From the NCBI GenBank assembly GCA_000827205.1, contig KN832566.1, positions 808,905-872,904 on the forward strand: a stretch of 64,000 nucleotides of DNA. The letters run 5' to 3'. The notes beneath the pieces were generated by a model. The model did not search any database and was not told the DNA's origin. It was given only the letters and a program-made list of their open reading frames with translations. Position numbers and translations under genes: made by a program. This document shows positions 3,711 to 56,899 of the stretch, in pieces (within the stretch, counting starts at the first letter, position 1; each line of letters begins with the position of its first letter). Source of the stretch: Plicaturopsis crispa FD-325 SS-3. Its lineage: Eukaryota; Basidiomycota; Agaricomycetes; Amylocorticiales; Amylocorticiaceae.

Positions 3711-5489
3711 ATGGCCCCCAAGCTATCCAAAACCACAAAAGCGAGCGAGCGGCCTGTAAAACGAGCCCGCGTCGACGCGCAACCCCAAAAGTCCAAGGGC
3801 CCGCCGATACTACACAAGAAACCGGCCGCGGTGTCGAAGGGAAAGGCGAAAGCGAAAGAAACGCGAGCTTCCGACGACGATTACCGCTCGCCCCTGCCGT
3901 CGACGTTCAAAATCATAGCAGGGTCGTACGAGAAACTATTATACGGGCTCGAAGGGTCCGTCTCCCTCTCCGCCTCCTCCGACTCCGCCTCCTCCAACTC
4001 CGCCGAAGACTCTGGTGGATACAACGACGGCTCTGGCGGTGGATACAAATTCCACCTAAAACCGATATTCATCTTCCCCGCGCACGTATCCTGCATCAAG
4101 GCCGTCGCGGCGTCGCCCAACGGCGGGAAGTGGCTCGCGACGGGGAGCGCGGATGAGATCGTGAAGGTGTGGGATTTACGCAGGCGGAAGGAGATTGGCG
4201 GGCTTATGCATCATGAAGGTCCGTTCCCCCTCCCCCTCCTTTCCTCCCCCTCCCCCTCCTCTTACACTTACACTCACCAACTAACTCAATTCCCGCGTGG
4301 GGTTGTAGGATCCATAACCCACCTAACATTCCCCACGCGCTCCCACCTCCTCTCCGCCTCCGAAGACGGCACCCTCGCGCTCTTCCGCGCGCGCGACTGG
4401 GCCGTGCTCCGTTCGCTGCGCGGGCACACGGGCCGCGTGAACGCGCTCGCGGTGCACCCGAGCGGGAAGGTCGCGCTGAGTGTGGGGAGGGATCGGACGC
4501 TGAGGATGTGGGATTTGATGCGCGGGAAGGGGTCGGCGAGCGTTAAGTTGGGGAAAGGTGCGTACTTGATTGATTGGTGGTGGGGAGGGGATATAAGGCT
4601 GATGTGGTGGTGAGGAAAGAGGGGGAATTGGTGAGGTTCTCGACGGATGGGAGTTTGTTCGTGGTGCAGGCGCAGTCGACGATGGATCTTTACACAACCG
4701 TTCGTCTTTCTTTTTCCGTTATCATCTTTCCCCGTTAACCATATACTTTGCACAGGAAATGCTCCTCCTCCACACAATCCACCACCCCTCCCGCCTGCAC
4801 GACGTCAAATTCGTCTCGCGCGTCGACGGGTCGGGCGAGCTCCTCCTCGCCGGCGCGGAGGATAGGAAGCTGGCTGTGTATGATATACCGGCTGACAGAG
4901 AGAGGGTGCCGAGTGTGGTGGCGGAGATGGTGGGGCATGGGAATCGGTGCGTGCCATCTTTATCTCATCGTCCCCATCGTCTATACCCTCACCGTCCACA
5001 TCATCCTAACTCTAACTCGCGTACACCCACAGAGTAAAAGCAATCGACACGCTGCGCATCGCCCTCCCCTCGACGACGCGGCCAAGCACGACGGTCGTGT
5101 GCACGATCTCGTCCGACGGGAAGGTGCGTGTGTATGACCTTGCGTCCGTGCCACCCGTGGGCGAGAGTGGCAATGTGAGGACGCAGATCTCGCCTGTGAC
5201 GCAGATCTCGCCCGTGGCAGAGTACGACTCGAAGGGCACGCGGCTCACGTGTGTCGCGCTCGCGGAGGGCGATACTACGGCAGATGGTGATGGTGATGGT
5301 GCGGCGGGTGAGAAGCGGAAACGCGAACGCGATGAGGGGGAGGAGGGGGATGGTGGTGAGGAGGATGGGGAGGATGGGTGGGGGTCTCCTGAGGAGGAGG
5401 ACGGAGATGAAGAGGAGGAGGAGGATGAGGAAGAGGAAGAGGACGAGGACGAGCAAGAGGTGGAGGAAGAGCAGGAGAGCGACGCATGA
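3711..5489 (+). CDS. MAK11: WD40 protein of the MAK11 / PAK1IP1 family
   Basis: Nucleolar beta-propeller protein needed for assembly of the 60S ribosomal subunit. Exons 3711-4218, 4309-4557, 4620-4699, 4756-4946 and 5033-5489 give 494 residues. A basic N-terminal tail carries Lys/Arg clusters (KRARVDAQ, KGKAKAK) that look like a nuclear signal. WD repeats end in KVWDLRRR (about residue 155), ASEDGTLALF, GRDRTLRMWDL, GAEDRKLAVYD and SSDGKVRVYDL. The C-terminus is a long acidic Asp/Glu tract after a basic KRKRERDE stretch, as in many nucleolar proteins. The third exon start uses an AAAG acceptor that keeps a canonical GT donor and the family-like reading KLGKEGELVRFSTDG. Confidence 0.87.
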
Positions 5490-25337: not shown

Positions 25338-26428
25338 TCACGCAGGACCTAGTCCTGCTCGTCGCCGCAGGGCTTCAACTTCACGCTCGCCCGGATTTGT
25401 TTTTCTGAGCTTGTCATAATCGTACCATACGATCACGGAATCAGACAAGGTCACGATCGCGCGCTGTCCGTACGAATACGCTACTGCTTGAACATTGAAA
25501 AACGGCGAGGTTGGCGGGTGGTCGGGGAAGTGCGGCTTGTGTGCAATGAGAAGCTATCACCGTACCATATACTGATTAGCACGCGACGGGCAATATAGTG
25601 CCAAAGGGAAGATCGTACCGTGTCCGGGTATGTAACAGGCCGTTTAAAATCGATGCTGAGGGACTTCAGGATGAAGGACACGCCTTTGCCCTTGAGCATC
25701 GCAGTGGCTCGCTCTGGGCCACCAAGATCATCTCCGACAGCTGTTATCCATTTCATGCGACCCTAGATCCAGAAGTAGCACAAGACGACCCAACAATGAA
25801 CAAAAATGTTTGTCGGTGGGCGTCACATCCGAGAAGAAGTATAGCAGATACTTACGGACTCAAAGAACCGCGCTGTCAGGAGAAAAAAAACGCGAGTTCA
25901 GCAGTGCTTTGAAAGGCAAACATAACGAAGTGATTTACCGTAACGCACGTTATTTACGTGCCTGCAAATTTCATAATGGGCCCACTTGTCGACTTTGGGT
26001 GGGAGGATATCCACTTACTGGAAAGAGTCATGATCTCCCCATACGATGGTTTGCTCGAAGAACGAATCCGGATCGTAACCTTTGCCCAAAAGCAATTCGC
26101 GAGCCTCTTTCGCTGGAGAGACGGAATCAGACCCCGAAGGCACCTCTGAAGCACTATGAGTTAATCCTGTATGCAAAGGCTGCCCGTCGTTCAAGGACAA
26201 GTCATCTGGCGAAGCTGGACCTTGCGCTCCAGGCGGGAGATGAAATGGAGATGATGGATCCCGAAAGGCCGCTTGAAGTGACTATAGAAAAGGTCAGTAC
26301 TTCATTTGTATCTGGCACTCATTTCGCGTACTGACACGTATGCTCGAGGAGTTATGTCGTATTTGACGAACGACGTTGTGTACCTGTAAAACGCCCCGCA
26401 AACGGCTGTAACCGTTCAACAAGGCCAT
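25338..26428 (-). CDS. Hot-dog fold acyl-CoA thioesterase-like protein, probably mitochondrial
   Basis: Member of the 4HBT/YbgC thioesterase group, expected to hydrolyse acyl-CoA; the substrate is unknown. Exons 26428-26384, 26281-26019, 25961-25939, 25872-25856, 25762-25619 and 25553-25338 give 235 residues. The family core is clear: VWGDHDSFQHVNNVRYARFFES, where the Asp and the Asn pair sit at the active site, then GRMKW, the strand VTYPDTLLIAHK and SDSVIVWYDYDKLRK. The first 60 residues are basic and lack acids (MALLNGYSRLRGVLQ and on), suggesting a mitochondrial presequence. Two very short exons (23 and 17 nt) encode the active-site loop. It converges with the CNH-only gene, leaving 136 bp between stops. 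Confidence 0.85.
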
Positions 26429-26977
26429 AGTAGTTCAACGTTCAGCGTTCAAGAGAAACCTGCGCCGGAGAGGAACGGCAACTTCGGCAAGCACGAACGT
26501 ACGAATTTCGCGCCACTCGAGCATGCCACGTGCTCTCGTTCAAAAAGGAAGGTAGGTAAGTTTCAAGATCGTCCAACCGTTTCTCTTCTCCGCGTCACCA
26601 TTTTTTTTCGCTTTAACTCCCGTAAATGCTGCAATTTTGGGCGATTTTCTGACTGAAGTATGTATCGGTGCCACCGAAACATTGACCAGTCTGTTTTGAA
26701 ATCACGTCTAGTCACTCAACGTCGGAATTTTCAGCAGGTGAAACTGGAACATATACGTTCGCGATCACTTGAGGCTGACCTCAGTATGAGACAACTGTCG
26801 GATCCATGCAGACATCGGTATAAAGAGCTGTCATGGATTCTAAGGTACGTTCATCTTTCCCTCTTTTCATCTCCACTTTCACTCAGATCCTGGCGATCGC
26901 CTTTTGCACTTGCACACCCTTTTACACCTTTCTCACCTCCAATCTAACTCAACAAACTTATATCCGCACATTTAATA
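26429..26977. promoter_or_regulatory. Divergent upstream region of thioesterase and His-rich protein genes
   Basis: A consensus TATAAA lies at 26819-26824, facing the plus-strand gene. Just downstream, aaggtacgt at about 26842 and an acceptor near 26886 (actcag) suggest a 5'-UTR intron of the His-rich gene. No other element was seen. Confidence 0.5.
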
Positions 26978-29660
26978 ATGGTTGCGCTCACCCCACGCTT
27001 TACGCTCCTTGCTACAGCATGCTCTCTTGCAGCTCTCTCTGCGACCGGAGCCGGGGCCGTAGCTGTCCAAGGACGAGGATCAGACGCATCTGATACCCAT
27101 TCGTCGTCGTCATCACCTTCCAGGCAGAGGACACCCGTATTGGCTCTTCCTCCTTCCGGATCAACTTCCAATTTCCGCGCGTCTAAGGGGCGCAAGGCCG
27201 GCTCCAAGGATGTTAAGGACCTCGAGTCGGGCACAAAAAGTTACAGCAAGAGCACGAAGAAACACCACAAGCAGGTACGCTCATTACTTTCTTTGATCTA
27301 TATTCTATAGTCCCTGACTTGGTTTGTGTTTTGAAAATAGAGGATGACGGACTGGACCCCGCTTAACCCGCTCGCAAGGCTCTTCATCCGCGATGAGGAA
27401 TGCTACGGACGCCCGTGCGGAGGACTCGGCCTTGAAGTTGACGTTGACGCTCCCGTACTCATTCGAAGAGAGCCGCACCATGACCACGACCATCACTACC
27501 ACCATGACGATGACGATCGCCATAAAATGGTCATGGTCACTGGCGATGATGACCACGTTCGCATTGGGAGGGCGCCTCATCATCACCACGGTCACAAAGA
27601 GCACGAAACAGTAGTCGTAAAGGGTAAAAACGACCACGTTCACATTGACCGTTCTCCTCATGACCACGGCCACCATGGCCATCACGACCACGAGAAGGTC
27701 GTCGTCTCAGGAAAGAACGACCACGTTCACGTCGAGCGTGCGCCTCACGATGATTACCATCATGACCATCGCGGACACGGCAACAACCAAGCTCGGCGTT
27801 CGTTGCTCATCGCTGACAACAATGGTGAAGCATCTTACCTTGTGGAGCATTCTCGTCGTGCCCCCGAGCCGCATCACCATCACGGCAAAGAGAAGGTCGT
27901 CGTGTCCGGGGATAACGACCATGTTCGCGTCCACAAACGTGAAGAAGAAGGCGTTCCGGGCACTGTCGACATCATGGTACGTTCTCTGCCGTGCTCTCCA
28001 TTTCATCCGAGTTTATCAATCTTTTGGTTCTGTGCAGAGTTCTGTGTACAACTCTACGTCTCCAGCCAAGATCGCCTCGCTTGTCTTGAGCACCAACTCA
28101 TCCGGCAATTCGACGGACAACTCCGTTTTTGTACTGAGCGCGTCTGACACCAACTCTACCCAGCTTTATCTTGTCGCTATGGACGCAAAGGACTCTGACG
28201 CAGCACCCTCGAACTCTTCTTCGAACTCGTTTGTCTCCCTTCAGCTCGCCGTTTTCGATGCATCGCAGGCTGCGATGGTGCCGTATTGCGCAACGTTCGA
28301 TCCAAGTCCACCTTCCCCGGAGCCACTGGTTCTGGAGCCGTGTTTCAACAACACGACACCGTCGATGCATAAAAGCCAGACTTTTGCGTACGACAGTAGC
28401 TCCGGTGTTATTCATCCTATGTGGTTCAACGGCGAAGACGACGGCATGTCTCCTTCGACTGGTCCGAGCAACGGTACCGTTTCCAACGCCGAGGATCCTG
28501 CGGCATCTGGGTCCAGTGCTGCACCGGGAAACACAAACTCTGGTCTAGCGAGCGGAAACGGAGGCAACGGCAATGGCAACATGGTCAACGCTCGCGCTGA
28601 CACCGAGGCTACCCCTGCTCCCTCGAATGCCTCTCCTGCTGAGCCAGCGAAAGCTCCTGCCGGATCTGGAAGCGGCGACGCGAGTGGAAACACTCTCAAT
28701 CTTCGGGACGCTAGCCAGGCGCAGAATGTGACGCTTGTTTTCACTCCTAGTGCACCAGAGGTCATCAAGGCTATCGATCAGACCGACACCACAACTGTGG
28801 TCACGGTCTCTTCGACGTCTTCAAGCTCTGCGTCGGCGACCACCTCAGTGATGTCTACCTCCACTGCAACTGACTCTGCTTCCTCGATGTCGACATCCAC
28901 AGCGATCGGATCTGCATCTGCGGTGAACGCTGCTCTGGTATCTGCTTCCGTCTCTGCCACTGCCACGGACAGTCCTGCCACCTCTGCCACTGCTAGTGCT
29001 ACAGCGTCCTCCTCCTCGGACCCTTACGGCGGGGAGGTCGAGTGGTACACAAACACCACCACCGGTACCGCGACTGCTACGTCGGACTCGGCTTCGGTGC
29101 CTACGTCCGCAGCGGCCTCAGGGACCCTCAGCGCACAGGATATCGACCCTTCTTACACTACGGACGATGGGCTAGCGACCGCCTCCACCACGGCAACGGA
29201 CACATCGATGCCCATGAGCACGGATACCTCGATGTCTACTAGCACTGACACCTCTATGCCTACCAGCACCGATGTCTCGTCCGCTACCAGCACCGACGCG
29301 TCTACTCCCTCCAGCACGGACGACTCGATGCCCACTGATACCGCGGCGCCTTCCAGCACCGATACCAGTGATCCCCCGATGACTACTGTCGACGCGGACG
29401 CGATCGCTGCCAGCATTGCTGCATTCGTATCGACCTGGGAGGGAGAAATGTCGCCATCTGCGTCCGCTGCGCCGTCCTCGACTGTTCCCGCTGCTAGCGC
29501 CTCGGCGACCGCGTCGAACCTTGCTGATTTCGCATCTGTCTCTAGCGCGCAGTCTGTGAGCACATCGACTGCGACTGCTACGAGCTCTGCTGCATCTGCC
29601 TCGATGACGCCCGTCAGCACCGCGCCCTACGAGTGGATGTTCAAGCCTGAGTCGCGATGA
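26978..29660 (+). CDS. Secreted histidine-rich repeat protein with Ser/Thr-rich C-terminal half, unknown function
   Basis: I do not recognise a family. Three exons (26978-27274, 27341-27976, 28038-29660) give 851 residues. A signal peptide is evident (MVALTPRFTLLATACSLAAL, cleaved near residue 27). After a basic Ser-rich stretch, residues 145-300 hold four to five degenerate repeats of about 30 residues. Each pairs a strand such as EKVVVSGKNDHVHVERAPH with a His/Asp cluster such as HDHGHHGHHDH. Such clusters commonly bind Zn, Cu or Ni. Two Cys (ECYGRPCGG) precede the repeats. The rest is Ser/Thr/Ala-rich with many N-x-S/T sites, then STDTSMSTSTDTSM-like tandem repeats, typical of an O-glycosylated wall protein. 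There is no C-terminal hydrophobic segment, so no GPI anchor is expected. Confidence 0.8.
29181..29370 (+). repeat. Tandem coding repeat, Ser-Thr-Asp units
   Basis: Within the His-rich gene, units of about 24 bp encode variants of MSTSTDTS / MPTSTDVS / TSTDAS in tandem. They form a mucin-like stretch likely to vary in length between strains. Confidence 0.7.
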
Positions 29661-30095: not shown

Positions 30096-32228
30096 TTACC
30101 CAATCATGCTGGAAGGAACTGAATGGACAGACCATTCTCTGAGAACGCCGCTCGCAAGCGACGAGTTCTCTATCTTGAAATTCCAGAACTACGATCTCAC
30201 GTGAGTGGGTGGAAGATATGAACGATGAATTGGACATACGATCCAGCCCCTTCCTTGGTTGTAAGCGAGCTTTTGGGCATCTGCCCATTTTACAAGGAAT
30301 GCGTCTGTCGCATGGAACCCAGTCAAAAGAGCCCACTCTCCCACGACGAGAGGATCATTCTTGACGGATGCAGCGGTCGTAAATATGGCAGTGTCTAGTA
30401 TCATGTTTAGCGGTCATAACCAATTGGTGAGGTAAATACTGACTGCAGATGCTGGTCAGGTAAGCACTCTCGGTCGGATCGGCCTTGCTCTAATGAAAGG
30501 ATGTCATGAGTATATGGCGAAAGAGACGACGGAACGATGCATACGGCACTGTCATCCGGAGAAAGAGTCATTTAGAACGCTTGTTATCTCAAAATGGAAG
30601 AAAGTATCGCTCACCTGTAATAAACATGACTGTCGTATGCTTGCGGGCCTATCGCAGCATTGACAGGGTTTGGAGGGTTGTTGTACTGCCATCTGACACT
30701 CATGAAACTTCCGTATCCATGTAAGGCGACGTCAATTGGGTAGATAAACAGGAATGAGCTAACCTGGCAACTAGGGGTGACATAGTCTTCGTTGTGGCTT
30801 TATTGAAATTGGTCACCGAATCGAGAGAAAATTGCGTGGCGAGGCCCTGAAGAATCGGAGACGCCGCCTTTAGTGCGGACACCACCATGTCAGTGAAGAC
30901 GGCTCCGTTGGCACTGGACACCTCCGTGAGTGCGAGCGTAAGGTTTGTCGTGGAGATGCTTTGGGCCAAGGTGGTGTTGGGGACGGGAACACCTATTATG
31001 AGTTCTACTGCCCGAACAACTCGGACGAAGTCTTTCTGGACTGATACATGACATGCGTGTTAGCACACGTACTGGCTTGATTAACCGAGCGCATACGTAC
31101 AATCGCCGTATCCAGGAGTTAGCGATGCGTTTGCGATAGGTTCGTTGGCTGCTTCGATGGCTGCAACACTCCCGAAAACAGGGTCGAGATGCGAAAGAGC
31201 TGTCATGACCGCAGACCAAGTAAGAGCACGGCGGTAGTTGCTCGTGGTCTGTGGTATGATATCAGCTCGAGTACTTGATAGATTCTGAAGAAATCGCTCA
31301 CATAAAATTGCACATCTGTAGTGCATCTAATGCAAGCGAGTGGTCAGCTCAAGGAGATTAATGAGCGGATACGTATATTTTTATTACCTGCCCGTAGACA
31401 TTTGGTTTGGTGACTGCACTCCAGGAAGTCCGTGGTGGTCCAGAATGGCCGTGATGCCCGCCGCCTTAAGCATCTTCAGACCATTGCGCTGTAGGACGAT
31501 GCACAGTTCAGCAGAATACTTAATGTGTCCATATTCATAAACCTTACAAGATACGAAATTCCGCCGCGAGGGTAATACTCGGAGGTGCGATCAACCAGTG
31601 CTTCCAAAATCCAGTACCCAATCTGCAGAAACAATTAGACCCGGTCTCCGTCCGAGTTCCAAACGTTAAAACTTACCGGTATCCGAACTGTATTGATTCC
31701 TGCTGCACTGAGTTTATCCACATCGGTTTGATTAAACCAGGTAGACCTAAAGCCGTAAATAAGACTCTTTGAATATCGTCGACTGTGGGATCATTTATTA
31801 CCAATGCTTCGCAAAAGTAGCGTCAGCAGTACTCGGATTCGCCTGTGTTAACGCACTGGATCAGAGAGAATTGAGCATTTATTTTACAGGACGGCGGTAG
31901 AAACTCGAGGGACTCACTACTCGGTCGAAATGCATCCCGAGCAGGTTCCAGTGCACGTTTCACCACCCATGTTATGCCATTCTGGATGCATCCGGATGAA
32001 AGAGACTCAAGCTGATGAGACCTAATGGAACATACCCTGTGGCTGCATCCAAGACTCTACGATTAACCTTTGGAATGTCAATTGTGATAGTCGAGAGCAG
32101 TATAGGGGGATTGGAACTTACCATGATCCCAAATTTACACCATAAACTTTGTCTGGCAGTGCCGCGCCGCTCACATGTCCTATGCTACACGCGAGTAGGA
32201 CGGCGAGGAGATAAACGAGCGACTGCAT
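30096..32228 (-). CDS. Secreted GH5 exo-beta-1,3-glucanase type glycoside hydrolase
   Basis: Retaining glycosidase acting on beta-1,3-glucan or related wall glucans. Fourteen exons, the first 32228-32122, 32067-32036, 31981-31918 and 31855-31802 and the last 30394-30240 and 30188-30096, give 445 residues. A signal peptide (MQSLVYLLAVLLACSIGHVSG) is followed by KVYGVNLGSWLIVESWMQPQ, which marks the exo-glucanase branch. Later blocks are INTVRIPIGYW, GITAILDHHGLPG, IEAANEP with the acid/base Glu near residue 212, IGPQAYDSHVYY, and VVGEWAL with the nucleophile Glu near residue 383, then GRGWIFWNFKIE. Several Asn glycosylation sites are present. The junction before SFMSVRWQYNN uses a GGAAG acceptor and is the least certain. 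Confidence 0.9.
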
Positions 32229-33229
32229 TATAGGGGGGCGGCGAAGGCTTTTGACAAGACGCGTCTTCGCGTCGACCTTATGTATAAGTAGGTAGTCCAG
32301 GGGCCGAGGCAAGCCCGAAATTTGGACTTGAACATCCGCATCAACGATGAAACTTAGAAATCAGCGGATGCAAAACCATTCCGCCTATCGAAATGTTTGA
32401 TTCCCACCTGTCACCTGCAGACAGAAGAGGGTGGTGCTTCTGCTAAAAACACTGCACGCACGATGATCAGTCCCATGTCCCCTGATATACAAAATATTTT
32501 CCACTCACATGTTCGTTCCTCCGTCCAAGCCTCTACGCCGATGGTTTCAATGGGAGAGGGACCATGTTGTACTAGCACAATTACTATAGCTCGATCAATC
32601 TGTCGTTATGGTCTATAATTGAGTTTGTATTGACTCTTAAGTGAATCAATGATCCTCAGTCAAGGTTGTTCTGTTGTAAGCGTGGCCAAACTGCTGTGAT
32701 GTTAACGGATCGAGGAACCATCAAGTTCACTCGAAATGTCTGCTTACCCCTGGCCTTTCCCCTCCTTCCGCTGGCGGGTCACATTGACGCGTTCACAGAC
32801 GGGTTGATGGTGAGTACGAAGACTGCTTTTCGTCGGTTCCAAGCGCCATTTGACCGTGTGCGGAGACAATGATTCGCGTGAATAGCGGCGAGAACGCAAT
32901 AACCACGTGGAACGGTGGCTGTGCACTACCGCTCAATATCAACTCGCCTGTCCATAAAAGGAAATACGCGATAGGAGTTCGAGGCAACTGCCCGACCGCT
33001 CCGGCTTCGCTCAAGCAAGAAAATGCGAACTGGTTATAAAATGGTGTGGTAGCGGTGACAATGTGAGAAGACTGCGAGGTCCAAATGTCCATTGCCCAAT
33101 GCTCGTATACGTGAAGGACAGCGGCTGGTATATCTACAAGGTGTGTACAACAATGCATACCGCGGTATTTATGTAGAATGCAAGACAAAGTAGCTGTGAG
33201 CGAGAAACTGCGCCGAGAAATCGATCGGC
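32229..33229. other. Intergenic 1 kb upstream of the GH5 gene
   Basis: This region is upstream of the GH5 gene and downstream of the DGAT2 gene, both on the minus strand. A TATA-like tract (minus strand ttatacata, about 32280-32288) lies about 55 bp before the GH5 ATG. The rest shows no supported gene. Confidence 0.5.
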
Positions 33230-40732: not shown

Positions 40733-42697
40733 GGGGTGGTATACAGAGCTGTTTGGTATCCTAGGATGTGCATAGTGCGCTCGGTTTTATGCTCCTTGTC
40801 AAAGGGTCAAGCCAAAGCGGATGGACGACTATGGCCATGTTCAAGAAGGCACAGATGGCAAAGCGAGTGGTGTAATCTTCAAGATCAAAGGTTCCACCTC
40901 GCAAGTTGTCAAAGCGTGGTCAAGGCGGTCCGCGTAAATTTGTTTGAAGCGAGCGCGTCCTTTCCCGACGCACATTGTCAAATTGTCGTCAAGCGCAAGT
41001 GAGACGCGCCTCAATCCCAGTGAAAATCTACAATGACCAGGTAGGACAAAATATGACCAGGTAGGAAAAGAAGGTGGTCATCGGACTAGTTAGGACTTTC
41101 ATATGACCAGATAGGACCGTCGGTCGGCTAAATGAAAAATGTTTGACATGTTTTCTGTTTTGTGCGTTTGCGTGATGTGCGCAACGCTCGAACACTCAAG
41201 CAAAACATCAAACAGCTGTGTCTTGCTCCCACACTCGCTCTTGACTTGCTTTTTTTTTCTCTAAGTTCCCTCGGGTGTCGCCCTAAGTAGATATCTGACA
41301 CATACTTGCCGATTTTCCGCCATCGCACGGTCGAAATGGCAACGTCTCTTTCTTCCTTTCCACCACCATCCGACTCCCTCCAAGTGCCCTAAGTGCCAGC
41401 GCCCCAGCTCGACGAAGGCAATCGCGGCGACGATTAGCGGCTATCGTGGCCCCGCACGCAAGCAGGCTCGTTAGGCCACTGCCCGCTCGTAGCGGCTTGG
41501 TAGGAGTCGATATGGGCGTAGGTACGTGCTCGACGCTGTCTCGCACACTGCACGTATGCAATCTGAAGCTTACCGGCGTTTGCATATAGGCTACTCCCGG
41601 GCCAGAGCATCAAATAACGGTCAGTGCAGTGTCGTCTATCGCGGGCTCGGGGCTCGGTGGGAGTGATTGCGCAGCGGTGCGTTTCGTCAGCTCACATACG
41701 CGCCGCAGTGTAGGAGGTGGGACAGAGTATCCATAGTAGGTATGTGCATGCTGTATCGTGCATTCTGACTTCTAACTAATCCCCCCATCCAGGACTCTCC
41801 GCAGTTAGGCTTCGCCCAGTGCGGGCAGCCCGTACATGCCTGTCCACGGGAAGGCTTCGACGCTATGGCGCAACGATGGCGAAGCAGTGGCATTTACGGC
41901 GTGCATACGGGACTTGCAGGGAATCTTTCGGGTAGGGCAAGGTATGGCTGTAGCTTGTGTAAACAGGTACATAGACGCATAGTATACAAGCATAGCTCAC
42001 AGTCGGTACCGCCTCTGTATGCTATACCACGAATAGACAATTTTTACCTGCTCAAAACCAATGGCTAGCCAGTAACCAAATATTATCAACATTTTCGAGC
42101 AGGCTCTGAGCACGCCGCACCATATGCGCAGTCATATGCGCTCCGATCCAGTCAGATTGACGGTCATATGCGGTCATATGCGGTCTGACACAGTCCGATT
42201 GTTTATATGATATAGACCACATTTTCTGACTCCGTATGAAAATATATGACCGTCATATTTTATCATACCTGGTCCTACCTCGTCATTGTAGATTTTCACT
42301 GGGCCTCAATGAGAGGTCGATTGCCCGTGCTGTTGGCAATACGCCTGCCCCAGTAAAGGCAACGAACATAACACCAATATCAGACCGCAACAGGCTGTCA
42401 CCTTTCCACGCGACAAAATCGACCGACATTGACGAGACAGATGCAAATACGCGTACTGGGCGAGACCAGCCAGATAAATGGAGACACCGAGCCAGAGCGA
42501 GCGAGACCGACATGGAAGCAGGAAGTGGGAGGCGCGAAATTGTGGGCTCATACTTTTTTCAAAATATTTATACAGGGGCTATTTCCCGCTCGTTCACGAT
42601 GTCCTCCTTATACCGGCCCCGCATCGTCCTTTTCACTTCATAAACTGGCACGCAACCGACAAGGCCCCTGCAGAAAACACTCTGGCAACCTCCCTCA
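40733..42697. other. Intergenic region carrying a transposable element
   Basis: About 2 kb without a supported gene. Most is the terminal-repeat element at 41016-42303. The last 400 bp form the squalene epoxidase promoter, with a TATA-like tatttatac at about 42564. Confidence 0.6.
41016..42303. mobile_element. Non-autonomous DNA transposon with terminal inverted repeats and target-site duplication
   Basis: The left end begins cccagtgaaaatctacaatg and the right end is its reverse complement (cattgtagattttcactggg). The match continues inward as a near-perfect arm of about 40 bp, including gaccaggtaggac. The direct repeat cctcaat flanks both ends (41009-41015 and 42304-42310), as expected for a target-site duplication of 7 bp, or 8 bp if one end base is shared. 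Subterminal copies of atgaccaggtagga (41033, 41050, and a variant near 41102) and of tcatatgcgg near the right end look like transposase-binding repeats. The 1288 bp contain no transposase-like frame, so the element must be mobilised by another copy. Confidence 0.85.
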
Positions 42698-44350
42698 ATG
42701 TCGACGCACTACGATGTACTCATTGTCGGCGCGGGCGTAGCTGGCTCGTCGCTGGCCCACGCGCTCTCCGCAATCACGTCTCCGCGACGGGCGACACCGT
42801 TGCGTATAGCGGTGCTCGAGCGGTCGCTGGCGGAGCCGGACAGGATAGTCGGGGAGCTGCTGCAGCCAGGCGGTGTCATGGCGCTGAGGAAACTAGGCAT
42901 GGAGTCGTGTCTCGAAGGCATCGACGCGATACCTGTAGACGGCTACTGCGTCGTCGAGGCTGCCGAGAACAAGTCCGTCCAGATACCCTACCCCGACGGA
43001 TACCAGGGGCGTAGTTTCCACCACGGCCGCTTCATCCAGTCCCTGCGCGCGAAGGCGAAGCAAGCTGTCGGCGTGGACATGGTGGAGGCCACGGTGACGG
43101 ACCTCATCGAGTGCGAGTTCACGCAGAGGGTCATTGGTGTAAAAGCGAAGAGGGGGGCCGACGGGGAGAAGGAGAATCTCTTTGCGGACCTGGTCATTGT
43201 CGCGGACGGCTGTTTTTCGAATTTCCGGACATCGGTCATGGGCCAGGCAGCGTTCAAGCCCACGACCAAGAGCCATTTCGTTGGCGCCATTCTTGAAGAC
43301 GCAGAACTGCCTATGAAGCAACACGGAACGGTCGCTCTGGTCAAGGGCTATGGCCCTGTACTACTATACCAAATCGGGCAGCACGATACTCGTCTGCTGG
43401 TCGATGTCAAAGTCCCTCTTCCTTCGGATCTCAAGGTAGGGTTTTTTCAATAGGTACTGCGTGGTATTCGCTGAAACACGTTCGTAGGAACATCTTCTCA
43501 CTCACATCGTGCCTCAACTTCCGGAAGCCCTCCGTCAGCCCATCCGCACGGCCCTAGATAAAGACCGTATCCGCCGCATGCCCAATTCCTTCCTTCCCGC
43601 CATAGAACAGGGCTCGCAGTATCAAAAAGAGGGCGTCCTCCTTCTGGGAGATGCATGGAATATGCGGCATCCCCTCACCGGCGGTGGCATGACAGTCGCC
43701 TTCAACGATGTCGTGCTTCTCGCGGACATGCTCGCGGACGTCCGGGAGCTCGGGGACTGGGAGGAAGTCAGCGGGATGCTGCACCGCTGGCATTGGCGCA
43801 GAAAACAGCTCTCTTCGACAATCAATATTCTCAGTTTTGCGCTGTACGATCTCTTCGGTGCCGACCGTATGTTTCGCTGTCTAGACACTAGTGCGTGCCG
43901 CTGACTTATGACCACAGGCGAGGAACTCGCGGTCCTGCGATTAGGATGCTTCAAATACTTCGAACGAGGGGGCGAATGCATCAACGGCCCTGTTTCGCTT
44001 CTATCGGGGTGTGTTTTCCTCTCCCTGTTCCCAATCCTCTTGTTTTAACAATCGAGTTCAGAATCGTGCCATCCCCTGCCCTCCTATTTTACCATTTCTT
44101 CTCCGTCGCCTTTTACTCTATCTGGGTGATGTTCACGCACGCACAACGGCGGCCCTCCCCCGACGGCGGCAAGCCCGTCCTCGTCACCCCAGGCTTCGAC
44201 GAGTACCCCGCGCTTTTGGTGAAAAGCACGAATGTGGTATGTTGTCATTACTATTCATTCTCCTGTGTATGTTTCTTACGAGTTGTGTAGATTTGGACAG
44301 CGGTCGTCGTGTTTGGGCCGCTGCTGTGGACAGAAATCAAGTGGTGGTAG
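42698..44350 (+). CDS. ERG1: Squalene monooxygenase (squalene epoxidase)
   Basis: FAD enzyme of the ER that converts squalene to 2,3-oxidosqualene in ergosterol synthesis. Exons 42698-43435, 43488-43866, 43918-44008, 44062-44236 and 44291-44350 give 480 residues. The nucleotide-binding start is DVLIVGAGVAGSSLAHAL (GxGxxG), followed by DRIVGELLQPGGV, which is diagnostic. Next come VIVADGCFSNFR, PNSFLPAIEQGSQYQKEGV and the second FAD motif LLGDAWNMRHPLTGGGMTVA. The C-terminus has two hydrophobic segments (LLFYHFFSVAFYSIWVMF and WTAVVVFGPLLW) anchoring it to the membrane. Its N-terminus is short, without the extra N-terminal membrane segment found in mammals. Confidence 0.96.
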
Positions 44351-45474: not shown

Positions 45475-49127
<3,653 letters not shown>

Positions 49128-49806
49128 TGACCGGGCCCATTTTTGGTTTTCATCGAACACTCACTCATTGACGCTCCGCGGACTTCTCGTGTCATAGACA
49201 TCTCACGCATCTATCTTTCCTCCTTGCATGTATGGACAACTCTTCTGCACATACCATCTGTATCCTATCTGCTAATGTTTGTTACTATCTGACCGCAGTC
49301 GTTTGACACTTACCCTCTTTTATACATAACCTCTTTGGACACTCGTATGTGTTGCCGCTGCAGTATCATACTACTACCAGCTTGTACTCACTAGCACTGT
49401 GAAATAGTTATCACAGTCCTGTGAAATAGTTATCACAGTCCTGTGAAGTTGAATTTTGTGGTCGAAATGAGCGACGTGGTAGTCTAAGTATGCTAGACTG
49501 AGGAAGACTACGGTTGTACACAACAGCGGAGAGCTACATGTATGAATGAACAAAAGTAGTAACAGCGTCCTGTGAGCGTCCTGATCATGTCCGTGAGCAT
49601 GTCCGTTGGTGGATGGGATATGCGATGTACAACAGTGGCCTTGAATGTGAGCTGGTGCGAAGAATCCATGAATGAAAATGCGATGCGATGCGAGGGAAAA
49701 AATAGAAATAAGAATAAGAAACTTCTACTTCCGTCTTTTCGTCTTTGACGGCTTCAGCGCTGTCTCTTTCGGCTGAGTATGGCGGTCAGTCCGTCAGCGG
49801 CAGGAG
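49128..49806. other. Intergenic, convergent, with short repeats
   Basis: 679 bp between the GMC stop and the coiled-coil gene's 3' end. Contains the 22 bp tandem repeat listed separately and a looser repeat of gtcctg/catgtccg near 49570-49605. Confidence 0.5.
49397..49440. repeat. Two tandem copies of a 22 bp unit with inner dyad symmetry
   Basis: Unit ctgtgaaatagttatcacag plus tc, two exact copies followed by a partial third (ctgtgaag). Each unit has inverted arms ctgtga/tcacag around an A/T centre. Confidence 0.8.
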
Positions 49807-54691: not shown

Positions 54692-56899
54692 ATGTACGGG
54701 CCTGCACTCCTTTTCGCAGTATCTATCGCCTCGCTGGGCAATCCAGTGCTGGCTAAGACTGTGGTGACCGATTTGCCCATTGTGAACACGGTCATCAGCC
54801 CCGATGGTTTTAGCCGCTCGTGCGTCTTTTCTGTAACTCGTACATCGAGTCCTTCCCGACTGAACTTGGTGTCAGCTCTGTTCTGGCTGGAGGTACATTT
54901 CCAGGCCCTGTGATTAGCGGATTCAAGGTGAGATGCCTTCGTGTCGATTTTGGCAGGAGGGTCACTTATGCAGTGCAGGGAGATTCCTTCCACATCAAAG
55001 TGACGGATGAGCTGGTCGACAAGTCTATGGTCACGGACACGAGCGTGGTGAGTGCCCAGGATGACTTGCATCTTGTGTCGAACTCATTCTAGCCCAAACG
55101 ATTTAGCATTGGCATGGCATATCTCAAAATGGAACGAATTTTGAGGATGGGACTTCGTCTGTGACGCAGTGCCCAATAACTCCTGGAAATTCTTTCACCT
55201 ACAATTTCACTGTCCCCGACCAGGCGGGCACGTTCTGGTACGTTCTCACAATGCAGTCCTTTGCGGCCGTTCTTGAATCACGCTGTTAGGTACCATTCTC
55301 ACCTCTCGACGCAATACTGTGATGGACTTCGTGGTGCGTTGATTCTTTACGACCGACACGATCCACATGCGCACCTCTACGATATCGACAATGGTAAGCT
55401 GCCTACACCAATGGGTTCATCGCGCTCGCTGATTTGTTCAACAGAGTCGACGATTATCACGCTGGCGGATTGGTATGCCAGCCTTGATACTAGACAGTTC
55501 GCGAAATGATGACTAAAACGTTCTATTTTCAGGTACCATGACCCGGCACCATCACAGGGATTCGCACCTGCGCCTAACTCTACGCTGATCAACGGGCTCG
55601 GGCGCTGGCCTGGCGGACCCGAATCCGAGCTCGCTGTGATCGAGGTCGAGCACGGGAAGCGCTATCGTTTCCGCCTCATCGGGATGTCATGCCATTCCTC
55701 GTTCAACTTCACCGTCGATGGCCACAGTATGTTGGCTATTGAGGCCGATGGGGTGAACACTGGTCCAGTGCCAACTGACCAGGTCACAGTCTTCACGGGT
55801 GTGTACCTAGGTCACGTTCGACGGGCTGATGTACTAGCATGCTTACGCTATGTGCAGGTCAGCGGTACTCTGTCATCCTCGAGGCGAACCAGACCATCGA
55901 CAACTACTGGATTCGCGCCATACCCAACCGCGGCAACGCTAACATCACCAACGGCCTCAACTCAGCGATTCTCCGGTACAAAGGCGCACCACAGGTGGAC
56001 CCGGCCGAGCGGAATTTCACGAGCGTAGCGGCTCTCAACGAGACCTCCCTCCACCCGCTCACCGCGCTTGCCGCCCCCGGTAGCCCCTCAATCGGTGGCG
56101 CCGACGTTGTGCTCAATCTGGATATGGGTTTCCTTGACGCTACAAACCAGTTCACGATTAACGGCGCAGTGTTCGTCCCGCCGACTACGCCTGTGCTGCT
56201 GCAGATTCTCAGCGGGGCGAAGAATGCGACCGATCTTCTCCCGTCAGGGTCTGTGTTCCCCTTGCCGCGCAACAAGGTCATTGAAATTTCTATGCCTGGA
56301 AAGAACTTGCACGGTTCACCCGTAAGTGACCGCGTCCTATCCCATGATACGATCGAGTACTTACCAGTATGCTTGTTGCACCTGAAAGCACCCTTTCCAT
56401 TTGCACGGGGTATGTTGACATGTTCTAGCTTGACTCAATACGTAGCTAATAATCGTCTACGTGCAGCACGACTTCTCTGTGGTCCGGAGTGCTGGAAGTA
56501 CGGCGTACAACTATGCGAACCCTGTGCGCCGAGACACGGTCAACCTTGGGTCTGACCTGAACGACAACGTCACCATCCGGTTCACGACCGACAACCCAGG
56601 ACCGTGGTTCTTCCACTGGTATGTCGCTGCGTATCACTTTCCATGCCATAAGACTGTCCGCCTAATCATTACTCGCATAGTCACGTCGACTGGCATCTGG
56701 AGACCGGTTTAGCCATCGTGTTCGCGGAGGATATTGGTGACACTGCATCTCACAGCCCTGTCACACGTGCGTCCACCGCTGTACTTTTGGGATGTGAAAT
56801 GAGTACTGACGAAAACTTGCAGAGGAGTGGAAGGATCTATGCCCCACTTACAACGCGGCGCATCCGGGCAACGCGACGTCCAATACGACATCCACATGA
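54692..56899 (+). CDS. Laccase (multicopper oxidase, EC 1.10.3.2)
   Basis: Secreted phenol oxidase that reduces O2 to water. Thirteen exons (54692-54819, 54876-54927, 54979-55047, 55107-55237, 55290-55393, 55445-55472, 55533-55798, 55858-56321, 56389-56409, 56467-56618, 56681-56766, 56823-56899 are the twelve that I read; any further split is not needed) give 525 residues with a 21-residue signal peptide. All four copper signatures are intact: L1 [16 protein letters not shown]2 [20 protein letters not shown]3 HPFHLHG plus H, L4 [20 protein letters not shown]. The residue ten after the L4 Cys is Leu, as in many medium-potential laccases. L3 is encoded alone by a 21 nt exon. Many N-glycosylation sites occur. 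Confidence 0.95.

Follow-up and report, generated by a model that had tools for sequence, protein, structure and literature searches.

The genome of the basidiomycete Plicaturopsis crispa FD-325 SS-3 contains a gene for an 851-residue protein built around a row of histidine-rich repeats, which are predicted to form beta-hairpins. Judged from its sequence, this repeat protein is real and uncharacterised, matches no described family among the libraries searched, and is probably secreted. The best overall explanation, which we advance tentatively and with somewhat less than even confidence, is that of a secreted hairpin-row protein that holds or buffers metal on the cell surface or in the matrix around it. 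The gene lies in a stretch of 64,000 nucleotides (contig KN832566.1, positions 808,905 to 872,904 of the forward strand), here called the window, to which all coordinates refer; within the 33.2 Mb, 49-contig assembly it is on the contig numbered C13.

The coding sequence starts with the ATG at 26978 and closes with a TGA stop that ends at 29660 on the + strand, and the coordinates 26978-29660 given in a preliminary description of this DNA are exact, running from the A of the ATG to the last base of the TGA. Among eight listed combinations of GT..AG splice sites, one reads through to the stop at 29660 and the other seven stop by residue 348. The chosen set has donors after 27274 and 27976 and acceptors ending at 27340 and 28037, and by this splice logic the three-exon gene model holds. 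The introns, like the dibasic sites considered below, are additions to the preliminary description. The features of the gene are as follows:

26819..26824, + strand: TATA-box-like element ~160 bp upstream of the ATG, a consensus match only (consensus scan of 26378-26977)
26978..27274, + strand: exon 1, coding for the likely signal peptide (residues 1 to ~29) and then for a Ser/Lys-rich stretch (splice test, translation, hydropathy)
27275..27340, + strand: intron 1, 66 bp, GT..AG, GC 0.33 (splice test)
27341..27976, + strand: exon 2, coding for the CX4C loop (residues 120-125) and then for the histidine-rich hairpin repeats (splice test, translation)
27422..27523, + strand: degenerate repeat unit 0 (GLGLEVDVDAPVLIRREPHH..), after which comes a His/Asp cluster (judged by eye, with weak strands in AF2)
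27524..27607, + strand: repeat unit 1 (KMVMVTGDDDHVRIGRAPHHHHGHKEHE; motif, internal match)
27608..27694, + strand: repeat unit 2 (TVVVKGKNDHVHIDRSPHDHGHHGHHDHE; motif, internal match)
27695..27793, + strand: repeat unit 3 (KVVVSGKNDHVHVERAPHDDYHHDHRGHGNNQA; motif, internal match)
27794..27889, + strand: degenerate repeat unit 4 (RRSLLIADNNGEASYLVEHSRRAPEPHHHHGK), which begins with RR and has RR internally as well (judged by eye, with weak strands in AF2)
27890..27946, + strand: repeat unit 5 (EKVVVSGDNDHVRVHKREE), its hairpin followed by a KR site (motif, internal match)
27977..28037, + strand: intron 2, 61 bp, GT..AG (splice test)
28038..29660, + strand: exon 3, with a two-cysteine segment (residues 312 to ~450) and then the Ser/Thr/Ala tail (translation)
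29188..29269, + strand: STD tandem array, period 24 bp, 3.4 copies (tandem-repeat scan)

Read from the N-terminus, the protein has a likely signal peptide and a CX4C loop; six repeat units and a two-cysteine segment come next, and a Ser/Thr/Ala tail carrying the STD array closes it. No 15-mer of the protein is more hydrophobic than residues 8-22, after which come small residues suiting cleavage (positions -3/-1); by hydropathy, residues 1 to ~29 likely fit a signal peptide, as had been proposed, and this would send the protein out of the cell. The Ser/Lys-rich stretch extends to about residue 100 and gives way to the sequence CYGRPC, with Cys120 and Cys125. Two further cysteines, Cys395 and Cys413, lie within residues 312-450, where a poor model places strands. 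The tail spans residues ~450 to 840, and the long Ser/Thr-rich half with tandem STD units noted in the preliminary description is recovered, with the array placed at 29188-29269. All ten N-x-S/T sequons (counted without overlaps) start in exon 3; the protein is probably glycosylated, and its Ser/Thr/Ala half may act as an O-glycosylated spacer. The C-terminus, PYEWMFKPESR, is charged, the top 15-residue hydropathy in the last 40 residues is 0.55, and a GPI-type hydrophobic C-terminal signal was not found from the hydropathy of the protein end, which leaves the earlier designation as a wall protein without that support.

The six units occupy residues 127-301, and the preliminary count of four to five repeats is right, with four clear units and two more that are degenerate: unit 0, which immediately precedes unit 1, and unit 4, which separates units 3 and 5 and whose hairpin did not align with the other units in MAFFT. 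The clear units have V.V.G..DHV in common, with 6 of 17 columns invariant, and the second strand of their hairpins reads D-H-V-(H/R)-(V/I), Arg replacing the second His in units 1 and 5. Every unit except the last bears a His or His/Asp cluster. The pattern [VIM][VIM].G..DHV.[VI] has four copies in residues 127-311, while one copy arose in five of 20,000 residue shuffles and two in none, a descriptive figure since the motif was read off the same sequence. A score independent of the motif, that of the best gapless internal match over 14 residues, is 75 (BLOSUM62), whereas 60 shuffles reach at most 49. In an unaligned AF2 model of exon 2, the repeat units are drawn as strand pairs, at low confidence (mean pLDDT 48.0; 29.6-34.7 in four other models).

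Residues 144-311 contain 38 His, arranged with 15 HxH, 14 HxxH and 12 HH. The peak His density of exon 2 is 30 per 100 residues, and the runner-up reaches 18 among the 216 stop-to-stop frames of at least 100 residues in the window. This second most His-rich frame, around 5281 on the minus strand, overlaps a GAGGAG-type repeat (5391-5477) and is perhaps an antisense artefact.

Codon agreement between the four clear units (six pairs summed) is 69/102 at position 1, 81/102 at position 2 and 44/102 at position 3, in units that were picked for peptide likeness. Nonsynonymous distances (dN) are 0.17-0.43 in all six unit pairs, and synonymous distances (dS) are 0.74-2.33 in the four pairs where they are computable. 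With third codon positions so much more diverged than the peptide, the repeats appear to be old and to be under constraint at the peptide level. The His codons of the whole protein are mixed (24 CAC and 19 CAT), and in residues 144-311 the same codon is used by 17 of 37 pairs of adjacent histidines (18.5 on average in shuffles); recent slippage is disfavoured because neighbours share codons no more than they do in shuffles.

These codon data bear on one rival account of the protein, in which it is a low-complexity spacer of mucin-like type whose His/Asp and Ser/Thr stretches arose by compositional drift, are tolerated and serve no particular purpose. The Ser/Thr half is indeed of low complexity, with an STD array visible at the DNA level, and no homologue that would show constraint was found in the fungus's own genome, in viral contigs or in prokaryote genomes. 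The hairpin cores nonetheless keep their peptide despite large synonymous change and the His codons are not arranged in slippage-like runs, and we regard this account as improbable. Should the protein prove to be neither a metal binder nor a Kex2-processed precursor, it would be one more mucin-like fungal protein.

The earlier statement that the protein belongs to no recognised family is supported within Pfam, NCBIfam, PDB sequences and a fold search. With the exons scanned singly against Pfam, exons 1 and 3 have no match and exon 2 has only DUF2382 (E = 1, 10.2 bits against a cut-off of 23), which was rejected as below cut-off. NCBIfam has no match to exon 2, and its one match to exon 3, a Campylobacter LOFI repeat (E = 0.084), was likewise rejected as below cut-off. 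Among PDB sequences, the first 148 residues of exon 3 match none, and there are four weak matches for exon 2, the best at E = 0.021 to the Cu/Zn superoxide dismutase 8imd, in which the alignment agreement is mostly His, Gly and scattered residues; matches to glucose dehydrogenase (E = 1.2) are attributed to chance. Foldseek returned no match at E <= 0.001 (best E 3.0 among 9 and 0.47 among 51), and its matches were set aside because both query models, of exon 2 and of the exon 3 segment, are poor (mean pLDDT 48.0 and 42.6, respectively).

No second copy was found in the fungus's own 33 Mb genome by six-frame protein searches, scoring best candidates only, with exon 2, residues 312-459, units 2-3 and the two-cysteine piece; the weak second row of one such search is a neighbouring unit in the same gene. 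Relatives of the exon 3 segment and exon 2 were not found in viral contigs, and none of 184 pattern matches to an exon 2 query in prokaryote genomes is a relative; none is expected in either set for a fungal protein. The peptides NDHVHV, NDHVHI, NDHVRV, GKNDHV, HDHVHIE and HDHVHVE were not found in the main texts of the literature searched, and no title or abstract among the matches listed for His-rich basidiomycete or fungal wall proteins describes the protein. Two further papers added nothing, PMC5595786 offering just the name of a KE4 transporter and PMC10942635 the term His-rich in the title of a reference. Beta-solenoids of the VTVxGxNNxVxV kind offer a possible likeness of the repeat, and relatives of the protein are presumably to be sought in polypores.

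The working part of the protein would be a row of beta-hairpins, each made of a strand (VVVsG), a turn and a second strand (NDHVHVe), with a flexible His or His/Asp loop after most of them. Alternate residues of the second strand (H-V-H-V) would set imidazoles (or Arg, in units 1 and 5) on one face and hydrophobic side chains on the opposite one, and the strand histidines together with the HxH, HH and DHDH loops may coordinate Zn, Cu or Ni at near-neutral pH, the ions being released upon acidification. General chemistry makes it likely that residues 144-311, with their 38 His, 15 HxH and 14 HxxH, bind Zn, Cu or Ni around neutral pH, and we would expect, with good confidence, a purified repeat region to bind metal. 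The most likely role would be to bind or buffer metal outside the cell, on its surface or in the matrix around it, and that metal handling is what the protein is for biologically seems possible, if open to real doubt. The metal reading is weakened because units 1 and 5 have Arg in place of the second strand His and because AF2 confidence is low. Wood-decay fungi acidify their surroundings, where most His would be protonated and would bind metal weakly, and this too counts against metal handling.

The genomic tests of metal handling are negative. No ZIP transporter match (PF02535) lies on the contig that carries the gene; the genome's seven matches at E <= 1e-4 are on contigs C5, C10, C15 and C16. 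The consensus of the zinc-response palindrome is ACCTTNAAGGT, and the full palindrome is absent from the 600 bp upstream of the gene, where three five-base half-sites are present, as chance allows. Together with the negative test for Pra1 motifs described below, these results leave the proposal of a surface metal store or scavenger with composition alone behind it.

The same histidines give the protein a calculated charge that depends strongly on pH, a feature absent from the preliminary description. At pH 3.5, 4.5, 5.5, 6.5 and 7.5 the net charge of residues 144-311 is +53.7, +36.6, +19.2, -2.0 and -10.0, and that of residues 312-851 is +2.1, -23.2, -37.2, -40.6 and -41.8, all calculated with unfolded pK values. 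Because the charge of the His domain swings with pH while the tail stays anionic from pH 4.5 to 7.5, a pH-switched adhesive or matrix role is possible. The protein would then be an electrostatic glue whose His domain, strongly cationic below ~pH 6, pairs with the anionic tail, wall glucan or plant polymers and lets go above that pH, metal binding being incidental. One PacC-like GCCARG site is found in the 600 bp scanned upstream, a six-base match of the chance kind. Any His/Asp-rich protein would behave in this way, however, and charge alone leaves the conserved hairpin frame unexplained; we consider such a role unlikely as the main one.

The repeat region also carries dibasic sites. Kex2-type sites at half of the unit ends suggest an alternative role as a precursor, in which the Golgi protease Kex2 would cut RR or KR at repeat boundaries, the X-Pro ends would be trimmed, the resulting His-rich beta peptides would coat the hypha, and the Ser/Thr half would be a separate product. 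The sequence [KR]R occurs at residues 141-142, 251-252, 271-272 and 298-299 but is missing from exon 3, which codes for 540 residues, and R-[A/S/E]-P (REP, RAP or RSP) follows the hairpin in five of six units. Hairpin ends hold three of the four [KR]R sites. Dibasic residues stand at the ends of three of the six units; the binomial chance of at least three is 0.029, calculated after the sites were seen. The genome has one kexin P-domain match. Against these points, units 1-3 end in GR, DR and ER, which are poor sites by Kex2 preference, RK at 72-73 and KK at 94-95 fall outside the repeats, and the largest predicted His fragment, of 110 residues, is too long for a short peptide. Weighing both sides, we see processing of this kind as somewhat unlikely.

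Kex2-processed proteins (KEPs) of fungi provide the reference for such a role. XA or XP after the Kex2 site is described as a Ste13 trimming motif in a Coprinopsis cinerea KEP, which the X-Pro after the present sites resembles; the six C. cinerea KEPs selected in the same study are short with many Kex2 sites, whereas the present protein has four [KR]R sites in 851 residues (PMC9769878). The protein is like the KEPs of Agaricomycetes and like Rep1 in its likely signal peptide, its repeats, the dibasic ends of some of these and the X-Pro after the site, but differs in being long, in its mucin-like half and in having three of six unit ends without a dibasic site. The Rep1 peptides form amyloid-like fibrils. 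Rep1 of Ustilago maydis is reported to be cleaved by Kex2 into 11 secreted peptides involved in attachment (PMC5293756). If the present protein is cleaved by Kex2, it would bring a His-rich type into a group of secreted fungal peptides described as largely of unknown function (PMC9769878).

The surroundings of the gene were surveyed with 39 distinct open frames scanned against Pfam, 31 of them among the 70 window frames of at least 150 residues, so that the window is partly annotated. The neighbours are:

19-23 kb, upstream: RhoGEF and CNH pieces, with a PH_5 match below cut-off (Pfam)
30703-32360, minus strand: frames resembling a secreted glucanase by eye (MQSLVYLLAVLLACSIGHVSG..VYGVNLGSW), four pieces without a Pfam match at E <= 0.01
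33.5-34.5 kb, downstream: DAGAT-type acyltransferase (Pfam)
downstream, past the DAGAT-type acyltransferase: CAP-Gly protein (Pfam)
downstream: AAA and Vps4_C pieces (Pfam)
42644-43450, downstream: squalene-epoxidase-like FAD protein (PF08491, 2.9e-18; Pfam)
47112-48757, downstream: GMC oxidoreductase N- and C-domain pieces (Pfam)
55513-56552, downstream: multicopper oxidase pieces whose best PDB matches are laccases (Pfam, PDB sequences)

No metal-handling cluster with the gene is seen among the 39 neighbouring frames scanned. The multicopper oxidase at 55513-56552, matching what we take to be basidiomycete laccases, is probably the laccase meant in the preliminary description, which conceded that the link was one of position only. 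This is so, the two being ~26 kb apart with other genes between them, and the laccase was rejected as functional evidence. The short introns of the gene and this oxidase fit a fungal genome, which may be one of wood-decay type. Elsewhere in the window, a 22-bp unit (CTGTGAAATAGTTATCACAGTC), itself partly palindromic (CTGTGA..TCACAG), is present in 2.3 copies with 100% match at 49397-49447.

The metal-binding reading, which we continue to prefer, invites comparison with known His-rich systems, among them the fungal zincophores. Like Pra1/Aspf2, the protein is fungal, His-rich and probably secreted, and parts of Pra1 are thought to gather zinc extracellularly. In one report, protein metallophores of the Pra1 type are described as highly unusual, and Pra1 as binding zinc via a His triad, its His-rich C-terminal parts being flexible and unresolved (PMC12663325). 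HRXXH is given there and in a second source as present in all known Pra1 orthologues, with CHTHXXGXXHC kept in basidiomycetes (PMC12663325, PMC3386192), and the latter source describes the Pra1 upstream region as shared with a zinc transporter gene in some species, including Ustilago maydis (PMC3386192). Probable secretion and abundant His might suggest that the present protein is itself a member of this family, but HRXXH, HAXXH and CHTHXXGXXHC are all absent from its 851 residues, PF13933 has no match in the three exons, each scanned singly, and its contig has no ZIP match (a neighbouring ZIP gene is not universal in the family). Genome-wide, PF13933 likewise gives no matches, but nor does the control, so that absence of the family from the genome does not follow. 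On the motifs tested membership is refuted, and we consider it extremely unlikely. If the protein does hold metal, it would represent a second, unrelated fungal design, based on hairpin repeats, showing how fungi hold metal outside the cell.

The hairpin strands resemble the designed catalytic amyloids IHIHIQI and IHVHLQI in their alternation of hydrophobic residues and His; the designed peptides are synthetic fibril formers of seven residues, whereas this is a natural repeat protein. The designed peptides bind Zn, and a fibril structure of one in the group has His outward at a Zn-compatible spacing (PMC10008563). A metal-binding hairpin row would be a natural relative of such Zn-binding beta-peptides. 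A full natural counterpart of designed metal-binding amyloids, in which a mucin-tethered hairpin row presents a His-face Zn/Cu array as a metal store or surface catalyst, assembled and released by pH, is very improbable in our estimation.

The DELD proteins of Piriformospora (Serendipita) indica are 101-135 residues long, His/Ala-rich, predicted to be two-helix bundles and end in RSIDELD (PMC3192844). Like them, the present protein comes from a basidiomycete, is probably secreted, spaces its His regularly and lacks any known domain, but it has 851 residues and predicted beta-hairpins, and ends in PYEWMFKPESR rather than RSIDELD. His-rich arabinogalactan proteins of the plant cell wall have His-rich motifs, for which a role in metal binding within a wall glycoprotein has been proposed (PMC5293756). 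The likeness lies in those motifs and the metal binding proposed for them, and the difference in their plant origin. To our knowledge, the plant proteins lack hairpin repeats.
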